Translations under genes and position numbers: made by a program | Source of the DNA: Oscillospiraceae bacterium | GTDB taxonomy: Bacteria; Bacillota; Clostridia; Oscillospirales; Acutalibacteraceae | Length of the DNA stretch: 64,000 nucleotides | NCBI GenBank assembly: GCA_015065965.1 | Contig: SVPH01000013.1 | Location: forward strand, 1 to 64,000 | Direction: 5' to 3' | Shown here: positions 5,569 to 53,571 of the stretch, piece after piece | How the letters are laid out: every line of letters starts with the position of its first letter | Numbering within the stretch: position 1 is the first letter of the stretch | Notes under the pieces: model-generated | Database searches by the model: none | Seen by the model: only the letters and a program-made list of their open reading frames with translations | What the model was told of the DNA's origin: nothing

Positions 5569-6842
5569 TGTCAATGGATAAACTGAAAAGAATTATCGGC
5601 ATATTACTGGTTTTGTGTTTCACAGTTGCTTTTACCTCTTGCGGAGAAGATTCTCCGCAGGAGGTTACTCCGAACGAAACAACACAGACTGCCGAAAATG
5701 AAATAAGCGAAGAAATAACCGTTCTTTCACTCAACAAGGAATACATTTCTCATTATGAATGGTATGAAGATTATCCAGAAATGCTTGTGAGAAGCGAATA
5801 TACGGATGTTACTCTTGATAAATCAATGGAGAAAAAATACCCGCTTCTTGCCAAAGCCCTCACGGAAACTTCCCTGATGAGAAAAAGAGCAATGGAAGAA
5901 GAAAAGGATAATTTCATCGTTACTGCTACCGAAGAATTTTTGAACGACAGTGAAGCCTTTTCAACCTATGTTTCAACTCTTGACGTTCAGGTACGCCGTG
6001 CCGACAGTGTTGCAGTCAGTATTGTTGAAGATTACAATTCGGAAACTGACAGAGCATTCAACTGCCTTAATTACGACACGGAAAGCGGAAAACTGCTTGC
6101 TTTTTCCGATGTTGTAACGGATGTTTCGACAATTCCCGAATTTGTTGAAAAAGTTATTATGAGCCGTATAGGTGAAGAAGAGCCTTTCGGCAAAACCGCC
6201 ATTCCCGATTATTTCAAAAACACTCCGGAAGAAGATATCACTTGGGTGCTTGAATATAACGGCATAACCTTTTATTTCGAGCCGGGCGCTGTTGCTCCCA
6301 CAAATTTCGGTATTCAGACAGCAACGGTGACCTTTGCTGAATATCCCGATTTGTTCAAAGAAAAATATACTACCGTGCCGAACGCATATACGGTAAGCTT
6401 GCCTTTGTCAGTACCGTTCTATACCGATTTGACAGGCGATGGCAGAAGCGAAGAGCTTGTTGTTTCGGGCAACTACGACCCTGACGGCAGATATTATTAC
6501 ACGCTCGGCATATATTCGGAAAGCTCAAACTATGAGGTAGATTGGTTTTCCTATGACCTGAATCCGTATTATGTCAAAACCGCAGACGGTGACAGCTTCC
6601 TCTATGTTTTCAGCGAGGAAAGCGAAGAGGAAGACCGACAGATGATTCTGAGTGTATTCAGCCTCAAAAACGGTGAAATCAAGCAGGTCAGCGAAACGGA
6701 AACAAGTTTGCTTTACAGAGGCAATAATGTTTTTGCCTTGCCCACAGACCCCGAAAATCTTCTGCTTTCTGTCTATGACGGCTCAACAGATTCTGTTTTC
6801 TCTGCAGATGAAAACGGTATTCCGATGAAAACCGCAAGCTGA
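5568..6842 (+). CDS. Lipoprotein with RsiV/PdaC-like (DUF3298/DUF4163-type) region
   Basis: LLVLCFTVAFTSCGED lipobox; NCLNYDTESGKLLAFSDVVTD and NGITFYFEPGAVAPTNFGIQTATVTF typical of DUF3298. Confidence 0.65.
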   Translation: MSMDKLKRIIGILLVLCFTVAFTSCGEDSPQEVTPNETTQTAENEISEEITVLSLNKEYISHYEWYEDYPEMLVRSEYTDVTLDKSMEKKYPLLAKALTETSLMRKRAMEEEKDNFIVTATEEFLNDSEAFSTYVSTLDVQVRRADSVAVSIVEDYNSETDRAFNCLNYDTESGKLLAFSDVVTDVSTIPEFVEKVIMSRIGEEEPFGKTAIPDYFKNTPEEDITWVLEYNGITFYFEPGAVAPTNFGIQTATVTFAEYPDLFKEKYTTVPNAYTVSLPLSVPFYTDLTGDGRSEELVVSGNYDPDGRYYYTLGIYSESSNYEVDWFSYDLNPYYVKTADGDSFLYVFSEESEEEDRQMILSVFSLKNGEIKQVSETETSLLYRGNNVFALPTDPENLLLSVYDGSTDSVFSADENGIPMKTAS

Positions 6843-7837: not shown

Positions 7838-8500
7838 TTATTTATCATTTGTCACATTTCCGTTACCCTGAACGGGTATTGCTTCTCCGAGGTATGTAGG
7901 CTCAGGCTGAATTATGCAATATATAAAATCTTTGTTTCTCGCCAGAATTTCTCTTATATCTCTGTAAAGTTGACCGCTGTAACTTCTCGGATTTGATGCA
8001 ACGCCGTATGCCTCAAGTCCGAGCGCGCGGGCATCATAAATTGCTCTGTAAAGGTGATAGTCCTGCGTTACGATAAGCACTTTTTCGGCCTTAAAAATTT
8101 CCTTTGCACGGTACATACTCTCATAGGTTGAAAAACCTGCATGGTCCATAAAAATATTTTCCGAAGCAACTCCTCTTTCAATGGCAAAATTTTTCATAAC
8201 ATTAACTTCGTCATAATGTTCTCTGCCGTGGTCGCCGCTCATGAGCATTTTGGTGCTTGCACCGTTTTCATAAAGTTCAATGCCCTGCAAAAGCCTGTCC
8301 TCAAGCATATGGCTCGGAGTTTCTCCCCTTACTCCGCAACCAAGAACAAGAATGCAGTCATATCCGCTGCCTACGTTTTCAGGTGTAAGAATATATTTTT
8401 CCGCACCCTTTTTAACATATAAATCAATGCCGAGTGCGCCTGCGCCGCATAATATTGCAATACACAAAACGGCAGATATAAATTTTTTTATTATTTTCAT
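7838..8500 (-). CDS. SanA/YdcF-like DUF218 family protein
   Basis: YDCILVLGCGVRGETPSHMLEDRLLQGIELYENGASTKMLMSGDHG…IVTQDYHLYRAIYDARALG. Confidence 0.85.
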   Translation of the reverse strand: MKIIKKFISAVLCIAILCGAGALGIDLYVKKGAEKYILTPENVGSGYDCILVLGCGVRGETPSHMLEDRLLQGIELYENGASTKMLMSGDHGREHYDEVNVMKNFAIERGVASENIFMDHAGFSTYESMYRAKEIFKAEKVLIVTQDYHLYRAIYDARALGLEAYGVASNPRSYSGQLYRDIREILARNKDFIYCIIQPEPTYLGEAIPVQGNGNVTNDK

Positions 8501-9535: not shown

Positions 9536-10789
9536 TTATACATTTACGGTTGTTTGTGTGCCTGTTTGGGTCAAAGTTGAGGGTTCTTTGTATTCAACAA
9601 GGAAATCTGCGCTCACCCAGCCGGAGAACGAATTGTATTTTGCATAAGCCCAGCCGGTAACGGATTTTGTAACATTCAGAACCGTGCCGTTGGGAATCTT
9701 CGCAACAACTGATGAGTTGGGGTCTGCAGATGCTCTCATGTTAAGCACGCTGCCCGAAGTTTTAACCGTATACTTTCCCTTGGGGATTGCAGGATCGCTG
9801 TTAACCGAAACGGGAACAGTTGTTGTGGGAACCATTGTTCCGAGATATTCTTTGTCAATGGTTATTAAGCCCCATTCGCCGCCTTTGCAGGCAATGAAAA
9901 CACCGTTTTCGCCGGGCAGAATTGCGCTGAATTCAAAGCCAACAACGGTTTCCGCATTTTTATTGATAATTCCGAAATATCCGTCCTTGCAAACAGGAGC
10001 AAGCCCGTTAACAAACGCAAATGCGCAATCCTTTCCCATTGCATCGGCAACAGCGCAGGAGTCAAAATCAAAGGGGATGGCAGTTACGCCTCTTTCATTT
10101 ATGTATCCCCATTTTCCGCCTTTTTTAACTGCCGCCATTCCGTCTGAAAAATCCATGGCGTTATCATAAAGAAGAGCAATCTCAAGGCGCAGGCTTCGGC
10201 TTATATAACCGTATTTTGCTCCCTCACCGAGCGAATTTGCAACCGGATAAAATCCTGCTGAAAGGTTGAGTTCACCTGCTTTAACTTCACCGGCATAGCC
10301 TGTTTTGTCTGTCCACGCAAGATGCTTTACCGTTTCGTTCCAACAGGGAATCTGCTCGGGTTCGGTAAGACCGTGATACTGCCTTGAAGTAACCGTACCC
10401 GTTGCGGCATCGGCAAGCAAAAGGTATTCGGAGCGAGGGCTTTCAACGGTGTATCTGTAATTTCTCCACACATCACTGCAAACGGCAAATTCATTATGCT
10501 CCGCTTTCTCCGTAACCTTGCCGCCAAAAGTCATAAGCCCTTTTTTGCCGCTTTCTTTATCGGTAAAAACAGCCATAACGCCGTTAAGGCTCTTGACATC
10601 CGAAATCTCTTCAAAACCCTTTGTGCTGAATGAATAATTCTTCTGCTGTTCGGGTTCCTTGCCGCCGTCTATCGCATTTTTTACAGCAAGAAAAACCGCA
10701 GCAATCAGAACAGCCGACAGCACAACGCAGATTACCGCAATGAGTGCCTTGGGCATTTTCTTTTTCTTTTTAAATTTGATATTTTTCAT
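9536..10789 (-). CDS. Membrane-anchored WG-repeat + SH3b domain protein
   Basis: GKWGYINERGVTAIPFDFD and EWGLITIDKEYLGT (WG repeats); YTVKTSGSVLNMRASADPNSSVVAKIPNGTVLNVTK (SH3b). Confidence 0.8.
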   Translation of the reverse strand: MKNIKFKKKKKMPKALIAVICVVLSAVLIAAVFLAVKNAIDGGKEPEQQKNYSFSTKGFEEISDVKSLNGVMAVFTDKESGKKGLMTFGGKVTEKAEHNEFAVCSDVWRNYRYTVESPRSEYLLLADAATGTVTSRQYHGLTEPEQIPCWNETVKHLAWTDKTGYAGEVKAGELNLSAGFYPVANSLGEGAKYGYISRSLRLEIALLYDNAMDFSDGMAAVKKGGKWGYINERGVTAIPFDFDSCAVADAMGKDCAFAFVNGLAPVCKDGYFGIINKNAETVVGFEFSAILPGENGVFIACKGGEWGLITIDKEYLGTMVPTTTVPVSVNSDPAIPKGKYTVKTSGSVLNMRASADPNSSVVAKIPNGTVLNVTKSVTGWAYAKYNSFSGWVSADFLVEYKEPSTLTQTGTQTTVNV

Positions 10790-11043
10790 CTCTAATCCAC
10801 CCCTGAATTTATTGAGGAAATAATTGTATTATCAGTATATCACATTTATCCGCATCGTACAATTACAAAAGTGTGACAATAATGTAACAAAATTATAATT
10901 TTCTCTTGTATTTCAAGCAGAAAGACATTATAATAGGTATTATAATAGGGTAATAGTGTATACTTGGGTCAAAAAGTTACTTTTTAGTCACAGTTTTTTA
11001 ACGAATCTTATCCTTTTAAGGATTATAATTACAGGAGGATACA

Positions 11044-12642
11044 ATGGGCAAGAAATACGTTATCGCTTACGATATCGGAACAACAGGCGTTAAAACCTGC
11101 ATTTTCGAAATTGAAAATGAAATCAGGCTCATCGCTGCGGCAATGGAGGGTTATAAACTCTATATTTTACCCGACGGCGGTGCTGAGCAGGACCCTGAAG
11201 AGTGGTGGCAGGCAATCTGCAACACCACAAAAACCGTTTTTGAAAGTTGCGACATCAAACCCGAACAAATTGAGGGTATTTCTTTCTGCTCTCAGATGCA
11301 GGGCCTTGTACTTGTTGACAAAGACCTCAAACCTGTGCACAGAGCGTTCAGTTATATGGACCAGCGTGCCAAAAAGCAGATTAAAGAGGGCATTGCAAAC
11401 GGAATCCAGATTGCAGGCGCAAACATTTTCAAACTCATTCCTTCGCTTATTATCACGGGAGCAGTTTCCGCAAGCGTAAAAGACCCCGTATGGAAATACA
11501 ACTGGGTCAAGGAAAATGAACCCGAAAATTTCAAAAAAGTTTATAAATGGCTCGATGTTAAGGAATACTTAATCTGCCGTATGACAAACAGATGCGTTAT
11601 GACAAGGGATTCTGCTTTCGGTACACTTCTCTATGATATCCGTAAAGGCAAAGAAGGCTGGAGCAAAACCATCTGTAAACTCCTCGGCGTTGATATTAAC
11701 CACATGCCCGAAATTGTGGAATCAACCGATTGGGTAGGCGGTCTGACAGAAAAGGCTGCAGAAGAACTCGGTCTTAAGGCAGGCACAGCCGTTTTCGGCG
11801 GCGGCGGCGATGCATCTCTCATCGGCGTTGGCGCAGGCAGCGTTGAACTTGGCGAAACCCATGTTTACAACGGCACCTCAGGCTGGGTTTCAACCGTTGT
11901 TGACAAGAGCGTTGTTGATGCTTCCGCAATGATTGCTGCCATCATCGGTGCTCAGAAAGACAGTTTCAACTACTTTGCAGAACTTGAAACGGCAGGCAAA
12001 TGCCTCGAATGGGTTAAAGATCACCTTGCCCTTGATGAAATCGGAATTTTCCTTGAAAAAACCGATGTTGTTCAGTCAACGGAAACTGTTTATACCAGCC
12101 TTTACGATTATCTTTCAAAAGTTATTGATGAAATTCCCGCAGGCAGTCAGGGCGTTATCTTCACACCGTGGCTTCACGGCAACCGCTGCCCGTTTGAGGA
12201 CCCGAATGCAAGGGGTATGTTCTTCAATATCAGCCTTGATGTAGGCAAAACCGAACTTATCCGCTCCGTTCTTGAAGGCGTTTGCATGCATATGCGCTGG
12301 TTCCTTGAAACTCAGGATAAGAAAATCAAAACATCAAATGTTATCCGCTTTGTCGGCGGCGGTGCACTCTCTGACGTAACTTGCCAGATTCTTGCCGATG
12401 TTACAGACAGAACCGTTGAAACCGTTGACAGCCCTCAGAATGTAGGTGCTGTAGGCGCAGCGGTTATTATGGCAGTAGGTCTTGGTGTGCTTGAGGATGT
12501 TTCACACGCAAAACGCCTCATCCCGGCAAAGAAAACCTTCATTCCCAACCCCAAAAACAAAGAGGTTTATGACCGCAACTACGAGGTCTATAAGTCACTT
12601 TATAAAAATAACAAAGATGCATTCAAAACCCTCAACGGTTGA
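11044..12642 (+). CDS. FGGY-family carbohydrate kinase (xylulokinase-like)
   Basis: YVIAYDIGTTGVKTCIF; GFGGYxxx-type YNGTSGWVSTVV; IRFVGGGALSDVTCQILADVTDRTVETV; RBS caggagga. Confidence 0.85.
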   Translation: MGKKYVIAYDIGTTGVKTCIFEIENEIRLIAAAMEGYKLYILPDGGAEQDPEEWWQAICNTTKTVFESCDIKPEQIEGISFCSQMQGLVLVDKDLKPVHRAFSYMDQRAKKQIKEGIANGIQIAGANIFKLIPSLIITGAVSASVKDPVWKYNWVKENEPENFKKVYKWLDVKEYLICRMTNRCVMTRDSAFGTLLYDIRKGKEGWSKTICKLLGVDINHMPEIVESTDWVGGLTEKAAEELGLKAGTAVFGGGGDASLIGVGAGSVELGETHVYNGTSGWVSTVVDKSVVDASAMIAAIIGAQKDSFNYFAELETAGKCLEWVKDHLALDEIGIFLEKTDVVQSTETVYTSLYDYLSKVIDEIPAGSQGVIFTPWLHGNRCPFEDPNARGMFFNISLDVGKTELIRSVLEGVCMHMRWFLETQDKKIKTSNVIRFVGGGALSDVTCQILADVTDRTVETVDSPQNVGAVGAAVIMAVGLGVLEDVSHAKRLIPAKKTFIPNPKNKEVYDRNYEVYKSLYKNNKDAFKTLNG

Positions 12643-12669
12643 GAATGTTGAACGAAAGGAACATTACTT

Positions 12670-13377
12670 ATGAAAAAATATTTTGCTCTTATTATTTCGG
12701 TAATAATTATTCTCAGTTGTTTTACCGCTTGTAAACCCAAAATCAAAAACGGTGCCGTTATCTCTGATGCTGCAAGCAAGAATTACGCAGCAGTAACAGA
12801 AGAAGGCGGCGAAATCGCAAGAGATGAAGCAGGCAACCTCCTTCTCCTTGTTACAGACGAACACGGCAGAAACGTTAAAGACGAAAACGGCGAATACGAA
12901 ACAAAACGAGTAAAAATCGACCATGCTCTTGTAGTAGGCAACAAAATTGAATGCGCCGATTATGCTCTTACCATTCCCAACGGCTGGTCAGACAAAATGA
13001 GTTATGCTGACCTGATTATTTCAAGAGACGGAACAGAAGATATCCTTAAAATCTCCGTAACAGACGATTCTTCTCTCAACAATGTTATGGAAACCAGATT
13101 GAAGAGCATCAATCTCATTAAAAATAACTTCCCCAAAGCGGAAACAGGTTCAAAAGAAATAACTCTCGGTGATGAAATCATCGCTCAGTTCTCATATGCA
13201 TTCGTTGAAGATACAGGCGCAAGAGATGAAAACCTCAATGTTCTCAGTTCATATCTCGGATTCATCTTCTTTGAGCACAAAGGCGAAGTTTACACCTGCA
13301 TGCTCACTTCAAACAGAAACATGACCGAGCAGATTGATGAAATCGCAGGAATTCTCAACACAATTGAATTTATCTGA
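12670..13377 (+). CDS. Lipoprotein of unknown function
   Basis: MKKYFALIISVIIILSCFTACKP lipobox. Confidence 0.65.
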   Translation: MKKYFALIISVIIILSCFTACKPKIKNGAVISDAASKNYAAVTEEGGEIARDEAGNLLLLVTDEHGRNVKDENGEYETKRVKIDHALVVGNKIECADYALTIPNGWSDKMSYADLIISRDGTEDILKISVTDDSSLNNVMETRLKSINLIKNNFPKAETGSKEITLGDEIIAQFSYAFVEDTGARDENLNVLSSYLGFIFFEHKGEVYTCMLTSNRNMTEQIDEIAGILNTIEFI

Positions 13378-13410
13378 TTTTAACCCTATTCTTAAAAGGA
13401 GATAATAAAT

Positions 13411-14427
13411 ATGCTGTTCACACAAGATATCGGTATAGATTTAGGCACAGCCAACACCCTTGTTTTTGTTAAGGGTAAAGGCATAGTTATAAGAGAACCT
13501 TCTGTTGTTGCCGTTGACCAGAAAAGCAATCCTCCCAGAGTTGTTGCTGTCGGCATGGAAGCAAAAGAAATGATAGGCAGAACACCCGGCTCAATAACCG
13601 CAGTGCGTCCCCTTAAGGACGGCGTTATTGCAGATTTTGAAATCACTGCGGAAATGATTGCCGCTTTCATTAAGCGTACAACAAAAAGAACTCCTTTCTC
13701 ACGAATCAGAGTTCTTATCTGCATTCCCTCAGGCGTTACAGAAGTTGAAAGAAAGGCTGTTTATGACGCCGCAAAGAGCGCAGGCGCAAAATATGTAAGC
13801 CTTATTGAAGAACCCATGGCAGCCGCTATCGGTTCAGGTCTGCCCGTAAGCGAAGCAACAGGCAGCATGGTCGTTGATATCGGCGGCGGTACGGCTGAAG
13901 TTGCCGTTATCTCGCTGGGCGATGTTGTTACCGCAAACTCCGCAAGAGTTGCAGGCGATAATTTTGACGAAGCAATCATTTCTTATATCAAGAAAAAATA
14001 TAATCTTCTTATCGGTGAAAGAACCGCCGAAGATATTAAAATTAAAATCGGCTCTGCATATCCTTATGAGGGCGAAGGCACAATCAACATCAAAGGCAGA
14101 AACCTCATGGACGGTCTGCCCAAGAATGTTGACGTAACAAGCGAAGAAATCCGCGAAGCACTTGCAGACCCCGTTTCACAGATAGTTGACGCCGTTAAGT
14201 CAACCCTTGAAAAGACTCCTCCCGAACTTGCCGCAGACATCATTGACCACGGCATTATGCTCACGGGCGGCGGCGCTCTGCTCAGAGGTCTTGATAAACT
14301 TATCTCAACCGAAACAAAAATTCCCGTTATCATTGCTCAGAATCCTCTTGACTGCGTTGCTGACGGCACAGGCATCTGCCTTGAAAACGATTCTCTCAGC
14401 ATCACAAGCAATAAAAAGTATATCTAA
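13411..14427 (+). CDS. mreB: Rod shape-determining protein MreB
   Basis: [67 protein letters not shown]. Confidence 0.97.
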
Positions 14428-14441
14428 GGAGAAATTAACCG

Positions 14442-15287
14442 ATGATCCGTTTCCTGAAAAGTTCGGCATTTAAAATTTTTGCAGTTATAGCCGCCGCATT
14501 GTTGGCAGGCTCTGTATTTGCTGTAACTTCAAGAAACGGGTCTTCGCCTTTGACGAGCGTTACAAGCGTTGTATTCGGTCCGCTTTCGCAACTTTCGTCA
14601 TCGGTTGCGGCAAAATTTCAGAATCTCCCCATCTCCTTTAAATCTTCCTCTGAACTTTTAAAGGAAAACGAAGAACTCCGCAAAAAAATTGACGGTTTAA
14701 CAGATCAACTTGTTGACTATGAGCAACTCAGGCATAAAAACGAGTTTTATCAACAGTTCCTTGAAATCAAGGAAGATCACTCCGACTATGTTTTTGCCGA
14801 AGCAGCAATAATCGGCAGAGATGCTGCGGATAATCTCGGCTCATTCACTCTCAACAAGGGTTCAGCTCACGATATAAAGGTTAACGATCCTGTCATCTAC
14901 GGCAACTACCTTGTAGGTGTCGTTGCTTCGGTTACACCAACGCAGTGCACCGTTAACACAATACTTAACCCCAAAGTCAACGTCAGCGCATACGAGGTAA
15001 GAACAAGAGATTTGGGCTACGTTACGGCAACTGTTGCCCTCGCTCAGGAAGGTCACTGCCACATGCCCGGACTTGCATCATCAACAGCGGTTACAGCAGG
15101 CGGAATAGTCTGCACCTCGGGTGTCGGCGGAATTTTTCCCCGTGACCTTATAATCGGCAACATTATTGATGTTGTTGACGGAACTGTTGATATCTCCGCA
15201 AGCGCAATTATTGAACCCGGCGTTGATTTTACTCAGATTACCGATGTTTTTATCATTACTTCATTTGACGGACAGAATACTGACTGA
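14442..15287 (+). CDS. mreC: Rod shape-determining protein MreC
   Basis: Position after mreB; N-terminal TM + coiled coil ELLKENEELRKKIDGL; NKGSAHDIKVNDPVIYGNYLVGVV. Confidence 0.92.
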   Translation: MIRFLKSSAFKIFAVIAAALLAGSVFAVTSRNGSSPLTSVTSVVFGPLSQLSSSVAAKFQNLPISFKSSSELLKENEELRKKIDGLTDQLVDYEQLRHKNEFYQQFLEIKEDHSDYVFAEAAIIGRDAADNLGSFTLNKGSAHDIKVNDPVIYGNYLVGVVASVTPTQCTVNTILNPKVNVSAYEVRTRDLGYVTATVALAQEGHCHMPGLASSTAVTAGGIVCTSGVGGIFPRDLIIGNIIDVVDGTVDISASAIIEPGVDFTQITDVFIITSFDGQNTD

Positions 15288-15289
15288 CT

Positions 15290-15808
15290 ATGACTATTGA
15301 ATCACAACGCAAAAACATAATAATTCGCAGAATATGCCTTGCTCTGATTTTGCTGCTGCTGTCCGTTTTACAGAATACTGACGGCTTCTTTCCGCAGATT
15401 TTCGGTGTCAGGGCTTTGTTGCTTATCCCCTGCGTTGTATGTGTTGCAATGTATGAGCGTGACATATGGGGAATGCTGCTCGGCCTTTTTGCGGGCGCAC
15501 TGTGGGATATTTTTGCTTCGGGCGCAAGTTTTAACGCGCTGTTTCTGCTTGCCGTCGGCTTTGCCTGCGGTACGCTGATAAACACCATTATGCGCAACAA
15601 CATAGTAACTGCAACTCTGCTTTCGTTCATCTCTTCTCTGATTTATAATTCAGGTTACTGGCTGTTTAATTTTATCATACCCAAAACAGACAGCGCCGTT
15701 TTTATGCTGCTGCGTTACTATATGCCGGGTGTACTTTATACCTCAGTGCTTACTCCGATTATTTTCCTTGCCGTTCGTGCAGTTGTAAAGCATTTTTCAG
15801 AAGAATAA
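15290..15808 (+). CDS. mreD: Rod shape-determining protein MreD
   Basis: Multi-TM ~170 aa protein following mreC. Confidence 0.85.
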   Translation: MTIESQRKNIIIRRICLALILLLLSVLQNTDGFFPQIFGVRALLLIPCVVCVAMYERDIWGMLLGLFAGALWDIFASGASFNALFLLAVGFACGTLINTIMRNNIVTATLLSFISSLIYNSGYWLFNFIIPKTDSAVFMLLRYYMPGVLYTSVLTPIIFLAVRAVVKHFSEE

Positions 15809-15841
15809 AATTAATTTTAAAATACAAAAGGAGGAAATTTT

Positions 15842-17893
15842 ATGCATGTTAAAATAACGCCGAAAAGGCGTATTATTTCTGTTTGCGTAATGCTTGCCTT
15901 CTTTGTTTTTTTTGCCTTTGACCTGGTTAAAGTTCAGATTATAGACGGCGAAAAGTATGATGCCGCAAGTTCATCCGTATCGGCTAAAACCGCAACAATT
16001 TCTGCCGCAAGGGGCGAGATTGTTGACTGCTACGGCAAACCTCTTGTTTATAACGACCAAGGGTACTCAATTATTTTTGACGCTGCATATTTTCCTTCGA
16101 CCAAAGAACAGGCGCAGCGCAACGAAATAATAATAAATCTTATCAGACTTTTTGAAAATAATTCTCTTGAATGGAACGATAATCTTCCGCTTATTATTGA
16201 CGAGAGCGGCAACATTGCTTTTAAAGAGGACAGCGAAAAACTCATTAAAGAAATGAAAAGCGAAGATATGCTTGACCTCAACGAATATGCAACCGCCGAA
16301 AACTGCTTTCTCGAACTTGTTGCAGATTATGATTTGCAGGAGTATTCCAAAGAGGATGCAAGAAAAATTGCATCGGTCTGTTACGAAATGCGCCGTATTT
16401 TCTTTAAAATCGGCAATCCCTATACCTTTGCTGAAGATGTTCCCAATGAAATCGTCTCAAATATAAAAGAAAACAGCGATTTCTATAAAGGTGTTGACGT
16501 GCGCGTTGACCCTGTCAGAAAATATACAGACGGCACTCTTGCCCCTCATATCCTCGGCAGAATCGGCGCAATTGATGCCGATGAATACAAAGAAAAGAAA
16601 AATGACGGTTACAAAATAACCGATTATATAGGTAAAAGCGGCATTGAACTTGCCATGGAAAATTACCTCAAAGGTAAGGACGGTGAAGCAACCGTTTATA
16701 CCGATGAAAACGGCAACAACTCAACCGAAGTTACCATTGAACCCGTTCAGGGCAATACCGTTGTGCTGACCATTAATTCGGACTTGCAGAAAGTTGCTCA
16801 GGATTCGCTTGAAGCGGCTCTGCTTGATTATGCAGGCACAAAGGGTAATATGGTTGAAAATGCAGGTGCAGTTATCGTTCTCAACTGTAAGGACAGTTCA
16901 ATTCTTGCCTGTGCAACCTATCCTTCATACGATATTTCAACTTACAGCGAAAATGTTGCCGAACTCAACAGCGCTGCCGGCTCTCCCCTTTGGAACAGAG
17001 CGCTGCTTTCAACCTACGCAACAGGTTCAACAATGAAACCTTCCGTTGCGATTGCCGCACTTGAAGAAGGACTTATTGACGATGAATATACCGTTTACTG
17101 CAGCGGTTTATACACATATCTCGGTCAGCAATTCAAATGCGAACAGTCGCATGTTACAAGATTCGTAAATGTAGTTAATGCTATTGACGAATCCTGCAAC
17201 ACTTTCTTTTATGAAGTCGGCAAAAACCTCGGAATTGAAAAAATGAATGAATACAGAACCCTTTTCGGTCTGGGTTCAAAAACAGGCTGCGAACTGGGCG
17301 AAGCAACAGGTGTTCTTGACAGCCCTGAATACCGCTCATCGCTCAATCAGAAATGGCTGCCCGGTTATACCGTTCAGTCTGCTATCGGTCAGGCAGGCAA
17401 CCTTTTCTCTCCCATTCAACTCGCCAACTACTGCGCAACTATTGCCAACGGCGGCACAAGATATAAAACCCATTTTGTAAAGAGCATAAAGAGTTACGAT
17501 TACTCAGAAACAATCCTTGAAAACGAAGCGGAAGTAGTTGCCGAAACAGGCATCTCGCAAAAAACTCTTGAACTTGTAAAAAGCGGTATGCTTGAGGTTG
17601 GTACAACCGGATACTGCGCAAAATATTTCTCGCATCTGCCCGTTCAAGTTGCCGCAAAAACAGGTACTTCACAGGAAATCCGCAAACTCGGCGGTCATTC
17701 CGTCAAAATAAACAACGGTTTCCTCATCGCTTTCGCACCTTATGATAACCCCGAACTCGCTATTGCCGTTGTAGGCGAAGGTATGACTTCAGGCGCATTT
17801 GTTGCCCCTGTTGTTGCCGATATCGTTGAATATTACTACGGTCAGAGCGATACTCTTGACACATATCAACCCGAAAATACACTTATACCTTAA
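15842..17893 (+). CDS. mrdA: Penicillin-binding protein 2-type transpeptidase
   Basis: GRIGAIDADEYKE…YIGKSGIELAMENYLKG; ATGSTMKPSVAIAALE; VQVAAKTGTSQ. Confidence 0.9.
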   Translation: MHVKITPKRRIISVCVMLAFFVFFAFDLVKVQIIDGEKYDAASSSVSAKTATISAARGEIVDCYGKPLVYNDQGYSIIFDAAYFPSTKEQAQRNEIIINLIRLFENNSLEWNDNLPLIIDESGNIAFKEDSEKLIKEMKSEDMLDLNEYATAENCFLELVADYDLQEYSKEDARKIASVCYEMRRIFFKIGNPYTFAEDVPNEIVSNIKENSDFYKGVDVRVDPVRKYTDGTLAPHILGRIGAIDADEYKEKKNDGYKITDYIGKSGIELAMENYLKGKDGEATVYTDENGNNSTEVTIEPVQGNTVVLTINSDLQKVAQDSLEAALLDYAGTKGNMVENAGAVIVLNCKDSSILACATYPSYDISTYSENVAELNSAAGSPLWNRALLSTYATGSTMKPSVAIAALEEGLIDDEYTVYCSGLYTYLGQQFKCEQSHVTRFVNVVNAIDESCNTFFYEVGKNLGIEKMNEYRTLFGLGSKTGCELGEATGVLDSPEYRSSLNQKWLPGYTVQSAIGQAGNLFSPIQLANYCATIANGGTRYKTHFVKSIKSYDYSETILENEAEVVAETGISQKTLELVKSGMLEVGTTGYCAKYFSHLPVQVAAKTGTSQEIRKLGGHSVKINNGFLIAFAPYDNPELAIAVVGEGMTSGAFVAPVVADIVEYYYGQSDTLDTYQPENTLIP

Positions 17894-50787: not shown

Positions 50788-51459
50788 TTAAAAAGCATTT
50801 TCTTTTTCAACGTATTCTTTGAACTCGTTGAAAATGCGTTTGCCGATTGAACGGTAATCCATTGCAAGAACTTTTTCAATCTTTATCCTGCGGATTTCTT
50901 CGGGCACATTGTAAATTGTCATAATGGCATTCAACGCTCCCGAAATACGAGTTTCAAGCGGTACGGTTTTATCAATGGCATTCAGCGTTGCGTGTTCAAT
51001 GCCTGCAACAAGAATTTCCGCTTCTCTGAACTGCTCATCTGTCCAATCGGGACAGTATTCCGCAAAAACCTCTTTTGCACGGGCGGTATCATTGTTGTGG
51101 ATGATTTCAAGGCATTTCGGACTCTGATAAGTCGAAACGAAAAAGTCTTTCGCAACCTCGCTTTCTTCGCAAGCCGCCGCCATTGACATCAGTTCAAGGC
51201 ATATTGCAAGCAGATTGCTTATTCCGTCATCCGCTTCGTTCCTCATTAATTTCCATTGAAATTTGCAGAGAATTCCGACAAGTTCGGCAAGAATATCGTC
51301 TTTTGAATGAAAATGAAAGGTGAAATTGCCTTTGCTGATTCCAAGTTCGCTGCAAACGAACTGAATCGTAGTCGGAGTATAGCCGTTTTCAAGAAACATT
51401 CGGGTTGAAACACGGAGTATTTTATCTCTTGTATTTTCTTTTTTAACTGTTTGAGCCAT
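50788..51459 (-). CDS. TetR-family transcriptional regulator
   Basis: NTRDKILRVSTRMFLENGYTPTTIQFVCSELGISKGNFTFHFHSKDDILAELV; start refined to MAQTVKK with RBS aaggaggaa. Confidence 0.88.
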   Translation of the reverse strand: MAQTVKKENTRDKILRVSTRMFLENGYTPTTIQFVCSELGISKGNFTFHFHSKDDILAELVGILCKFQWKLMRNEADDGISNLLAICLELMSMAAACEESEVAKDFFVSTYQSPKCLEIIHNNDTARAKEVFAEYCPDWTDEQFREAEILVAGIEHATLNAIDKTVPLETRISGALNAIMTIYNVPEEIRRIKIEKVLAMDYRSIGKRIFNEFKEYVEKENAF

Positions 51460-51484
51460 TGTTCCTCCTTGAATTTTTTGAAAC

Positions 51485-51520
51485 TGCACATGTACTAATT
51501 CACAGTTTAGTACATGTGCA
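51485..51520. promoter_or_regulatory. Palindromic operator candidate for the TetR regulator, overlapping its promoter
   Basis: tgcacatgtactaa-ttcacagt-ttagtacatgtgca, 14-bp perfect arms, 26 bp upstream of the start; minus-strand TTGACA-17-TAAACT overlaps it. Confidence 0.7.
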
Positions 51521-51689
51521 ATATTTTGTCAACAGGTTATTTGAAAATTTGTATGTTTTATTTTACCGCACAACAAAAGATTGGTCGAATGTATAATATA
51601 TTAAATCAATTTCACTATTTATACCTGAGAGACAGAAAAAATCCGAACGCTTCTCCTACTTTGAAGAGAGGGTTCGGATTATCATCTTT

Positions 51690-51734
51690 TGGTCGGAGTG
51701 CAGAGTTTCGAACTCTGGGCCTCGTGGTCCCAAA
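51690..51734. repeat. Distal att-type repeat: exact copy of the 3' portion of tRNA-Pro
   Basis: tggtcggagtgcagagtttcgaactctgggcctcgtggtcccaaa, identical over 45 bp to 53496-53540. Confidence 0.93.
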
Positions 51735-51868
51735 TTTTAGTGGCGGATGTTTTCCGCCGTTTTTTATTGCAAAAATCAAGGAATATCAACAGTTTTTGTT
51801 CCAATGATGTCCACAGTTTTCCATAGATGTTTAGTCACTTTTTAGTCACTTGGCAATGTGTACCTATA

Positions 51869-53299
51869 TTATAATGTTCTGCTTGTGACTTCAACCTGAG
51901 TAATTACTTCTTTCAAAGTTTCTCCTGTAGCAAGTTTATAAGTCAGCAATTCATCTACGGTATCATATTCACGGTCGGTTTCGTTGTGTCCGACCTGACA
52001 TATTCCGACTTTGCCATTAAACCAGGTAATTGTATAATCAATATCTTTCCAGCAAAATTCAACTTCTGCGCCGCCGTTTATACACCATTTAAAATCGCTG
52101 ATTGTATCAAAATTATCACACGATGTAATGATGTTTATTTTTTCACCCGGATATTTCTTTTCTAATTCCTTTAATAACTCTTCACTTATATAACTCATAT
52201 CAATATCCTTTCTGAATTTGAATTCAGGAACATCAGATCCTTCCGGATAGTTTATTATCTGATGCTGAGGGTTAGGTTTTCCGGTAATGGGATCCCATGA
52301 GAATATATGGTCATGAGGATTGGTGTGATTTGTCCTATCATGAGTTGTATAGTGCCTTTCTTTTACAGCACGACCATCCTCACCTATTTTTGTTTCAGCA
52401 ATATATCCGCCTTTTTTACCGGGCATAGAAGTTCTTTTAATTTCTCCGGGTTTTCCTAAAAATCGCTCCGCCAATTCGTTTTTGGGTTGCCATTTTCCGC
52501 CATAAGCACTTCCCATGCCCTTAAAGCATTCCGGCATGACAAATCCATAAATTTGTTTCTTTTTTGAGTTTTCAGAAATACTGTTGTTTGTTATTGCTCC
52601 GAATTTTTCAACAAACACTGTATTTGCAGATTTACCAATGTCATCACCGTAATGCTGCCAAGAACTCAAATCATAGTCAACAAAAAGAATGTTACCTTCC
52701 ATTTCGGGGAACGGAGTGTTGTAACAGATAACCAACTCAGGTTCAATGCGTTTGAGCATTTCGTTGTAGCCTTTTAAGAAAAATTCCTTTTGGTCTTTGT
52801 GGCTTCCGTGTTCGGATACCATATAGGTTGAAACCGCAACTGTTGAACCTTTTTCAATACCATTAAAACAGAAATCAAATGTATTTTCAAGACCCCAACT
52901 TACAGTCGGAATAACTTTGATACCCTTTTCCGCAAGATATGCCCCGACCCAACGGTTTCTGAATGTGTTATACAACTGCATAACGGGATTCATTTCAATA
53001 TACATACTGTAATCGGGAGACAAAACCGCTTTGTATTTTTTGAGCATATCAATATATTTATCGGGTTTTGTCCATATATCCTCAAATTTATAATCATACA
53101 GGAAAAAGTGAACGATTCTTTCGTAATGTTCATCTTTTCCTGTTTTTATTTTGTCAAATCCAATCAGGCGTTGATCGTCAAAAGGAGTTAATCCCAAATC
53201 CACTTTTGAAATAACAGGTATATTCCATTTACCTTCACCTTTAAATTGATTCCGTAAAAACATAGGGCTTGTGCGATAGTTATAGTTCTCTTCTGTCAA
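51869..53299 (-). CDS. DUF4417-like protein with extra C-terminal module (mobile-element cargo)
   Basis: N-terminal DLGLTPFDDQRLIGFDKIK…YKAVLSPDYSMYIEMNPVMQLYNTFRNRWVGAYLAEKGIKVIPTVSWG; C-terminal GGKWQPKNELAERFLGKPGEIKRTSMPGKKGGYIAETKIGEDGRAVKERHYTTHDRTNHTNPHDHIFSWD…; TTG start with RBS ggaggt. Confidence 0.75.
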   Translation of the reverse strand: MTEENYNYRTSPMFLRNQFKGEGKWNIPVISKVDLGLTPFDDQRLIGFDKIKTGKDEHYERIVHFFLYDYKFEDIWTKPDKYIDMLKKYKAVLSPDYSMYIEMNPVMQLYNTFRNRWVGAYLAEKGIKVIPTVSWGLENTFDFCFNGIEKGSTVAVSTYMVSEHGSHKDQKEFFLKGYNEMLKRIEPELVICYNTPFPEMEGNILFVDYDLSSWQHYGDDIGKSANTVFVEKFGAITNNSISENSKKKQIYGFVMPECFKGMGSAYGGKWQPKNELAERFLGKPGEIKRTSMPGKKGGYIAETKIGEDGRAVKERHYTTHDRTNHTNPHDHIFSWDPITGKPNPQHQIINYPEGSDVPEFKFRKDIDMSYISEELLKELEKKYPGEKINIITSCDNFDTISDFKWCINGGAEVEFCWKDIDYTITWFNGKVGICQVGHNETDREYDTVDELLTYKLATGETLKEVITQVEVTSRTL

Positions 53300-53323
53300 T
53301 ATTTAACCTCCATAAATTAAAAA

Positions 53324-53347
53324 TGTAGCGAACGAATGTTCGCTACA
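53324..53347. promoter_or_regulatory. LexA/DinR-type SOS box (CGAACGAATGTTCG) within a 24-bp palindrome
   Basis: tgtagcgaac-gaat-gttcgctaca; core CGAAC-N4-GTTCG at 53329-53342. Confidence 0.85.
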
Positions 53348-53352
53348 AATGT

Positions 53353-53381
53353 ATTATAGAGAATAAATTCTATTTTGTTAA
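53353..53381 (-). promoter_or_regulatory. Sigma-A-type promoter of the DUF4417 gene
   Basis: Minus strand TTAACA (53381-53376) – 17 bp – TATAAT (53358-53353), immediately upstream of the SOS box. Confidence 0.75.
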
Positions 53382-53495
53382 GTGTTTTTCACCATTAGCG
53401 GTTATGTTTTGAAAAATATTAGTCACCTGTCTGAATTTCAAACAAAGAACTCCTTGCGTCAACGGCTGAAACCGTTGATATACAAGGAGTTTGAG

Positions 53496-53571
53496 TGGTC
53501 GGAGTGCAGAGTTTCGAACTCTGGGCCTCGTGGTCCCAAACCACGCGCGCTACCAGCTGCGCCACACCCCG
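53496..53571 (-). tRNA. tRNA-Pro (UGG), CCA encoded; its 3' part serves as the proximal att-type repeat
   Basis: RC: CGGGGTGTGGCGCAGCTGGTAGCGCGCGTGGTTTGGGACCACGAGGCCCAGAGTTCGAAACTCTGCACTCCGACCA; acceptor stem and T-arm pair. Confidence 0.96.

Follow-up and report, generated by a model that had tools for sequence, protein, structure and literature searches.

We identified a 1.8-kb insertion, bounded by exact repeats, at the 3′ end of a tRNA-Pro gene in a 64-kb stretch of DNA, the whole of which we refer to as the window. The insertion is, in our judgement, quite probably a non-autonomous, integrase-less and CIME-like element with a single gene, mobilisable in trans and belonging to a recurrent family. 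The source assembly is a MAG of 2.33 Mb in 56 contigs with 86% completeness. The regenerated target gene, an intact tRNA-Pro(UGG) recognised by ARAGORN with an Rfam tRNA score of 62.2 bits, occupies positions 53496–53571 on the minus strand, on which all features of the element and its target described below also lie. The original prediction of an exact 45-bp repeat, one copy of which forms the 3′ part of the intact tRNA-Pro, was confirmed by a repeat scan and ARAGORN. The tRNA-proximal att copy (53496–53540) runs from the anticodon loop to the 3′ end, and the distal att copy is located at 51690–51734. The block has no third site in the window, even with up to three mismatches allowed, and it was not matched in any of 100 shuffles. 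The two copies are 1,761 bp apart, in agreement with the predicted spacing of about 1.76 kb, and enclose a single sizeable ORF of 476 codons. The element measures 1,806 bp counting one att copy. The predicted absence of an intact integrase was also borne out, as a profile built from 14 integrases detected no tyrosine-integrase ORF across the 64-kb window.

The case for an insertion depended on finding empty copies of this tRNA-Pro locus among related genomes, and two of them, G061 and G002, supply such sites. The genus is represented by one draft assembly per species (n = 45 in the hairpin comparison), and the comparison of occupied and empty sites is one between species. The order in G061 is nudix, maf, tRNA-Pro, a hairpin terminator and 5′-nucleotidase; the window has the same neighbours with the 1.8-kb insertion added. 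In G002, tRNA-Pro is directly followed by the sequence found past the distal repeat of the window (98% over 53 bp). A terminator-like hairpin had been described beyond each repeat. Both are present as described, the one at 53448–53491 lying inside the element and the one at 51640–51680 outside it. Because the outer hairpin sequence stands directly 3′ of tRNA-Pro at the empty sites of G061 and G002, it is the original terminator of the tRNA, displaced by the insertion. The inner hairpin (AACTCCTTG...CAAGGAGTT) adjoins the tRNA and contains ATATCAACGGTTT, the inverse of a distal-arm motif; as the empty sites show the outer hairpin to be the native one, the inner hairpin came with the element. 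The suspected swap of the tRNA terminator thus took place. The inner hairpin is found in just four of the 45 genus genomes, namely the window genome (G000), G008, G011 and G020, always beside such an element.

Between the native terminator and the 5′-nucleotidase, the window also carries a TetR gene (50788–51489), which is absent from the empty site of G061. A perfect 14-bp inverted repeat upstream of this gene (51485–51520) is probably its operator. A relative of this TetR, with 52% identity, adjoins another copy of arm and att in G002 (L128).

Judged by their sequence, the ends of the element are intact and complete attP-type arms. The proximal arm site GTGACTAA at 53419–53426 is 69 nt from the core, the same position as in the integrase-bearing element of G020 (70 nt), and the inverse motif ATATCAACGGTTT on the tRNA side begins 14 nt away from the core in both elements. 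The distal attP-type arm (51735–51855) holds two copies of GTGACTAA, at 51831–51838 and 51842–51849, and AAACnGTTGATAT at approximately 51783–51795. Its spacing to the core is the same in six elements with differing cargo: at all six distal ends, GTGACTAA ends 107 and/or 96 nt before the core and AAACnGTTGATAT ends 48 nt before it, each within 1 nt. The three copies of GTGACTAA observed in the window element compare with 0.07 expected (P ~5e-5), and the distal end of the window element matches that of the G020 element by 83%. A strict 46-base arm pattern, which is too strict to gauge prevalence, had no match in 390 Clostridia genomes.

A longer element with an integrase, as sought on the basis of the original prediction, is present in G020 at the same maf-linked tRNA-Pro. 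This 22.9-kb element has the same proximal end, with the same inner hairpin and GTGACTAA arms, and encodes an integrase (PF00589), an excisionase-like HTH protein and a Rep3 initiator. In G026, a second integrase, 49% identical to that of G020, lies beside a tRNA-Pro 3′ end, and the site carries GTGACTA[AC] repeats and the same hairpin motif. The empty sites, the attP-type arms and the integrase-bearing element of G020 together support the earlier interpretation of the repeats as the footprint of a tyrosine recombinase at a tRNA 3′ end.

Beyond the G020 element follows a unit of about 2 kb that contains a single AAA ATPase gene between two att copies (L149, 5726–7288; ATPase-TOPRIM-like, PADLOC E 1e-35) and has the same arm and a third att copy at its end. 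This arrangement favours the idea that the small cargo units at this tRNA use one recombination system in common and are not specific to DUF4417, the domain encoded by the window element. The ATPase unit has no proximal arm and may therefore be the tail of a composite element. The integrase-bearing element of G020 also carries a 2,037-residue RHS-repeat protein and further RHS C-terminal fragments in tandem (L050, 8581–18313), an organisation typical of polymorphic toxin loci. At the tRNA-Pro of G022 (L055, 7171–16827) and G008 (L068, 10030–17982), two att copies enclose a block of 8–9.5 kb with lipoprotein, TPM-like and zinc-ribbon genes; the block has the same distal arm, and we noticed no integrase in it. 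The lipoprotein gene of this block occurs elsewhere in the window, at 5574–6824.

The single cargo gene of the window element (51869–53299) has a TTG start and encodes a DUF4417 domain (PF14386; residues 22–209, E 3.4e-55) and a variable C-terminal region. A promoter, TTAACA-17-TATAAT, is predicted at 53353–53381 with 11 of 12 consensus positions matched. The protein matches PHROG families 940 and 3711. It matched no family among the PADLOC defence models at E 0.1 and none in NCBIfam, and a search of viral contigs gave no relative. Phage and plasmid records match the DUF4417 domain only and never cover 80% of the protein. The AlphaFold model is of medium quality (pLDDT 71, pTM 0.48). Because a structure search with this model against the PDB returned nothing significant (best E 0.04), and a sequence search of solved structures gave chance matches only, we claim no enzyme fold. 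The literature consulted mentions DUF4417 in passing, for instance as a fusion partner of ParB-CTPase folds in phages (PMC12704722). The cargo probably provides a benefit to the host or the element, for example in phage defence or competition, the grounds for this being its mosaic C-terminus and the defence-like genes that accompany it in other units.

Comparison with G011 revealed spread between species. The conserved module of the cargo gene, codons 1–234 (52598–53299), is 98–99% identical to G011 at the nucleotide level with a dS of 0.05–0.08, and the proximal non-coding arm is 93% identical, whereas the dS of maf and nudix between the same two genomes is saturated at 1.2–1.5. As the proximal part is near-identical despite this divergence of the core genes, it has moved recently between species. 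From codon 235 onwards, the variable C-terminal module (codons 235–476; 51869–52597) drops to 66% nucleotide identity with a dS of 1.7, and this part has been exchanged. Among 30 homologues, the mean pairwise identity is 0.78 for the N-terminal domain and 0.45 for the last domain, with some pairs at 0.94–0.96 in the former versus 0.36–0.39 in the latter. The dN/dS between the window genome and G011 is far below 1, being low in both modules, and the cargo gene is therefore under purifying selection. Within the genus, three genomes have this gene flanked by ends of this kind. Some copies have decayed, since G011 lacks the distal att copy and the copy in G008 lacks an adjoining tRNA.

The cargo gene is not confined to this genus. 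A scan of species genomes identified 34 loci with a homologue in other Clostridia, mostly Oscillospiraceae, and most of the homologues are full length. For 34 gene copies, the available upstream sequence is 600 bp or more, and 16 of these lie 122–480 bp downstream of a same-strand tRNA, where about 1.5% would be expected. These tRNAs are mostly tRNA-Pro, but also tRNA-Leu, tRNA-Arg, tRNA-Ser and tRNA-Tyr. Because relatives directly follow tRNA genes in many gut bacteria, the gene has the look of a hitchhiking cassette and not of a random leftover. Several loci repeat the 3′ end of the tRNA (CACTCsGACCA) about 67 bp past the stop codon, with a conserved arm, AAACCrTTGATnTTnCTGG...TCCTATAAT, in front of the distal copy. 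The copies in L199 and L201 are exact over 15 nt, a score reached by none of about 950 background windows. Since the arms of the family and the repeat length differ from those of the window, the gene would seem to be paired with at least two integrase specificities. No tyrosine integrase was found within 5 kb of the homologue in 28 of the 34 loci, which is an upper bound, as several loci are short.

Tandem units were observed at L197, L198 and L200, and a tandem arrangement also exists in G008 and G020. At L200, from Clostridium methylpentosum, five full or near-full arm sites and one partial site split about 7 kb downstream of tRNA-Pro(ggg) (9773–16817) into short units, most of which end in a conserved arm, about 75 bp long, that carries a tRNA 3′-end copy. 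These units contain two DUF4417 genes, one of them broken, a repeated small ORF and a DUF3644/HEPN-like gene, whose product matches PADLOC models.

Two further features were observed around these loci. A conserved leader with GTTGCACAnAAATGTGCAAC precedes the DUF4417 gene in L187, L196–L201, L206, L209 and others; it includes a hairpin that spans AGAAGGAC...GTCCTTACT directly ahead of the ribosome-binding site, with double changes at 7 of 15 predicted pairs. The leader of the window element differs from this one. The motif AAACCrTTGATwTTmCTGG also occurs within approximately 250 bp of tyrosine integrase genes in the unrelated viral contigs L221, L222, L228, L235 and L238, and because of this recurrence it may be a widespread attachment-region motif.

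Regarding known classes of elements, the window element behaves like a CIME (cis-mobilizable element; Pavlovic, Bellanger and Guedon), which is flanked by attL and attR, lacks recombinase and transfer genes and stands alone or in tandem at a tRNA 3′ end. Here, the 45-bp repeats, the empty sites and the conserved arms mark a site-specific target with both flanks, and the one DUF4417 ORF leaves no gene for recombination or conjugation inside. The likeness rests on structure, and not on an origin by deletion or on mobility by accretion. CIMEs have been described as decayed ICEs or IMEs (PMC5704250), whereas here one gene type recurs across many species in units of 1.5–2 kb and under purifying selection. 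Without an integrase of its own, the element is not an autonomous ICE, IME or prophage. Its single DUF4417 gene also sets it apart from phage satellites (PICI, PICMI, tycheposon), as hijacking, replication and integrase genes are missing, and it corresponds to no defence system known to PADLOC. The G020 element shares the tRNA-Pro target, the hairpin, the GTGACTAA arms and the distal end, but it encodes the integrase, the excisionase-like protein and Rep3, of which the window element has none. The ssrA islands of Dehalococcoides are similarly composed of tandem units split by copies of the 3′ end of a tRNA-like gene, many without an integrase (PMC3146451); they differ in their serine recombinase and dehalogenase genes from the tRNA-Pro target, tyrosine-integrase-type arms and one DUF4417 gene found here. 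CALINs are integron cassette arrays without an integrase, in which single-gene units each end in a conserved recombination site (PMC11389934). The units described here share this organisation but sit at tRNA 3′ ends with double-stranded attP-type arms at the tRNA gene, instead of folded attC sites.

How could such an element have arisen? It might be a dead remnant of a G020-like element, reduced by internal deletion to two ends and one gene, then fixed and vertically inherited. Its ends do match the integrase-bearing element, deletion is an accepted origin of CIMEs (PMC5704250), and decayed copies exist, as in G011 without the distal att. Nevertheless, a proximal half near-identical in another species with saturated core-gene divergence, two identical att copies, the presence of this gene with such ends in three genus genomes and homologous units recurring at the tRNAs of other species all speak against it, and we consider a dead remnant rather unlikely. 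Within the genus, no parent combining the cargo gene and an integrase came to light. If the DUF4417 protein itself inserted the unit as a novel recombinase, this would explain why the gene stands alone at tRNA ends, beside various tRNA species and with two or more sets of end sequences. We set this very improbable explanation aside because units devoid of DUF4417, such as the ATPase unit of G020, carry the same arms; moreover, the arms match tyrosine-integrase elements, DUF4417 occurs commonly in phages, where it has no reported role as an integrase, and the structure search yielded nothing significant. It is even harder to believe that there was no insertion at all and that an ordinary chromosomal gene lies between tRNA-Pro and a pseudogene fragment created by local duplication. 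Partial tRNA-Pro-like duplicates do occur in relatives: three species have, immediately upstream of the genuine tRNA-Pro, a broken tRNA-Pro-like 5′ part with an interruption of about 130 bp (L050, ~1480–1630; L055, ~16880–17030; L067, ~8160–8300). However, an unrelated pseudogene, which the original prediction had named as fatal to its claim, is contradicted by the empty sites of G061 and G002 with intact neighbours on both sides, by a swap of the native terminator whose position coincides exactly with the tRNA 3′ end and by integrase-type arms at both ends.

Between the trans-mobilised satellite and the domesticated remnant that were originally offered, the conserved arm spacing and the recent interspecies transfer favour the former, mobility being a prediction from sequence. 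The trans-mobilisable element would behave like a CIME or like a satellite that depends on a tyrosine integrase. Its arms would be recognised by a tRNA-Pro integrase of the G020/G026 type that a second element provides within the cell, and because the ends are complete attP-type arms, such an integrase should be able to move the element. Excision and integration would occur in trans, or together with a neighbouring element by accretion, and a vehicle would presumably carry the element between cells and species. Homologous recombination at the conserved tRNA locus could be another route. Counting against trans-mobilisation are the decayed copies in G011 and G008 and the search for a helper integrase in the window's own 86%-complete MAG, in which the best match to the G020 integrase was 27% identical.

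A broader interpretation, which we put forward tentatively and with somewhat less than even confidence, is that long-form DUF4417 genes form a widespread class of integrase-less single-gene cassettes at tRNA 3′ ends of Clostridia. Such cassettes would bring their own tRNA terminator, form tandem arrays together with other one-gene units, as seen in Clostridium methylpentosum, swap their C-terminal modules and be moved in trans by resident tRNA-Pro integrases, as a tRNA-based counterpart of integrase-less integron cassettes. Integrase-less tRNA islands are usually dismissed as decayed leftovers, but here one gene type recurs at tRNAs across species, keeps functional-looking arms, replaces the terminator and spreads. 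The G020 integrase is a defined candidate helper, and the window element would be a minimal substrate for trans-mobilisation. If this interpretation is true, non-autonomous single-gene tRNA cassettes would represent a persistent lifestyle that island finders relying on integrases have missed.
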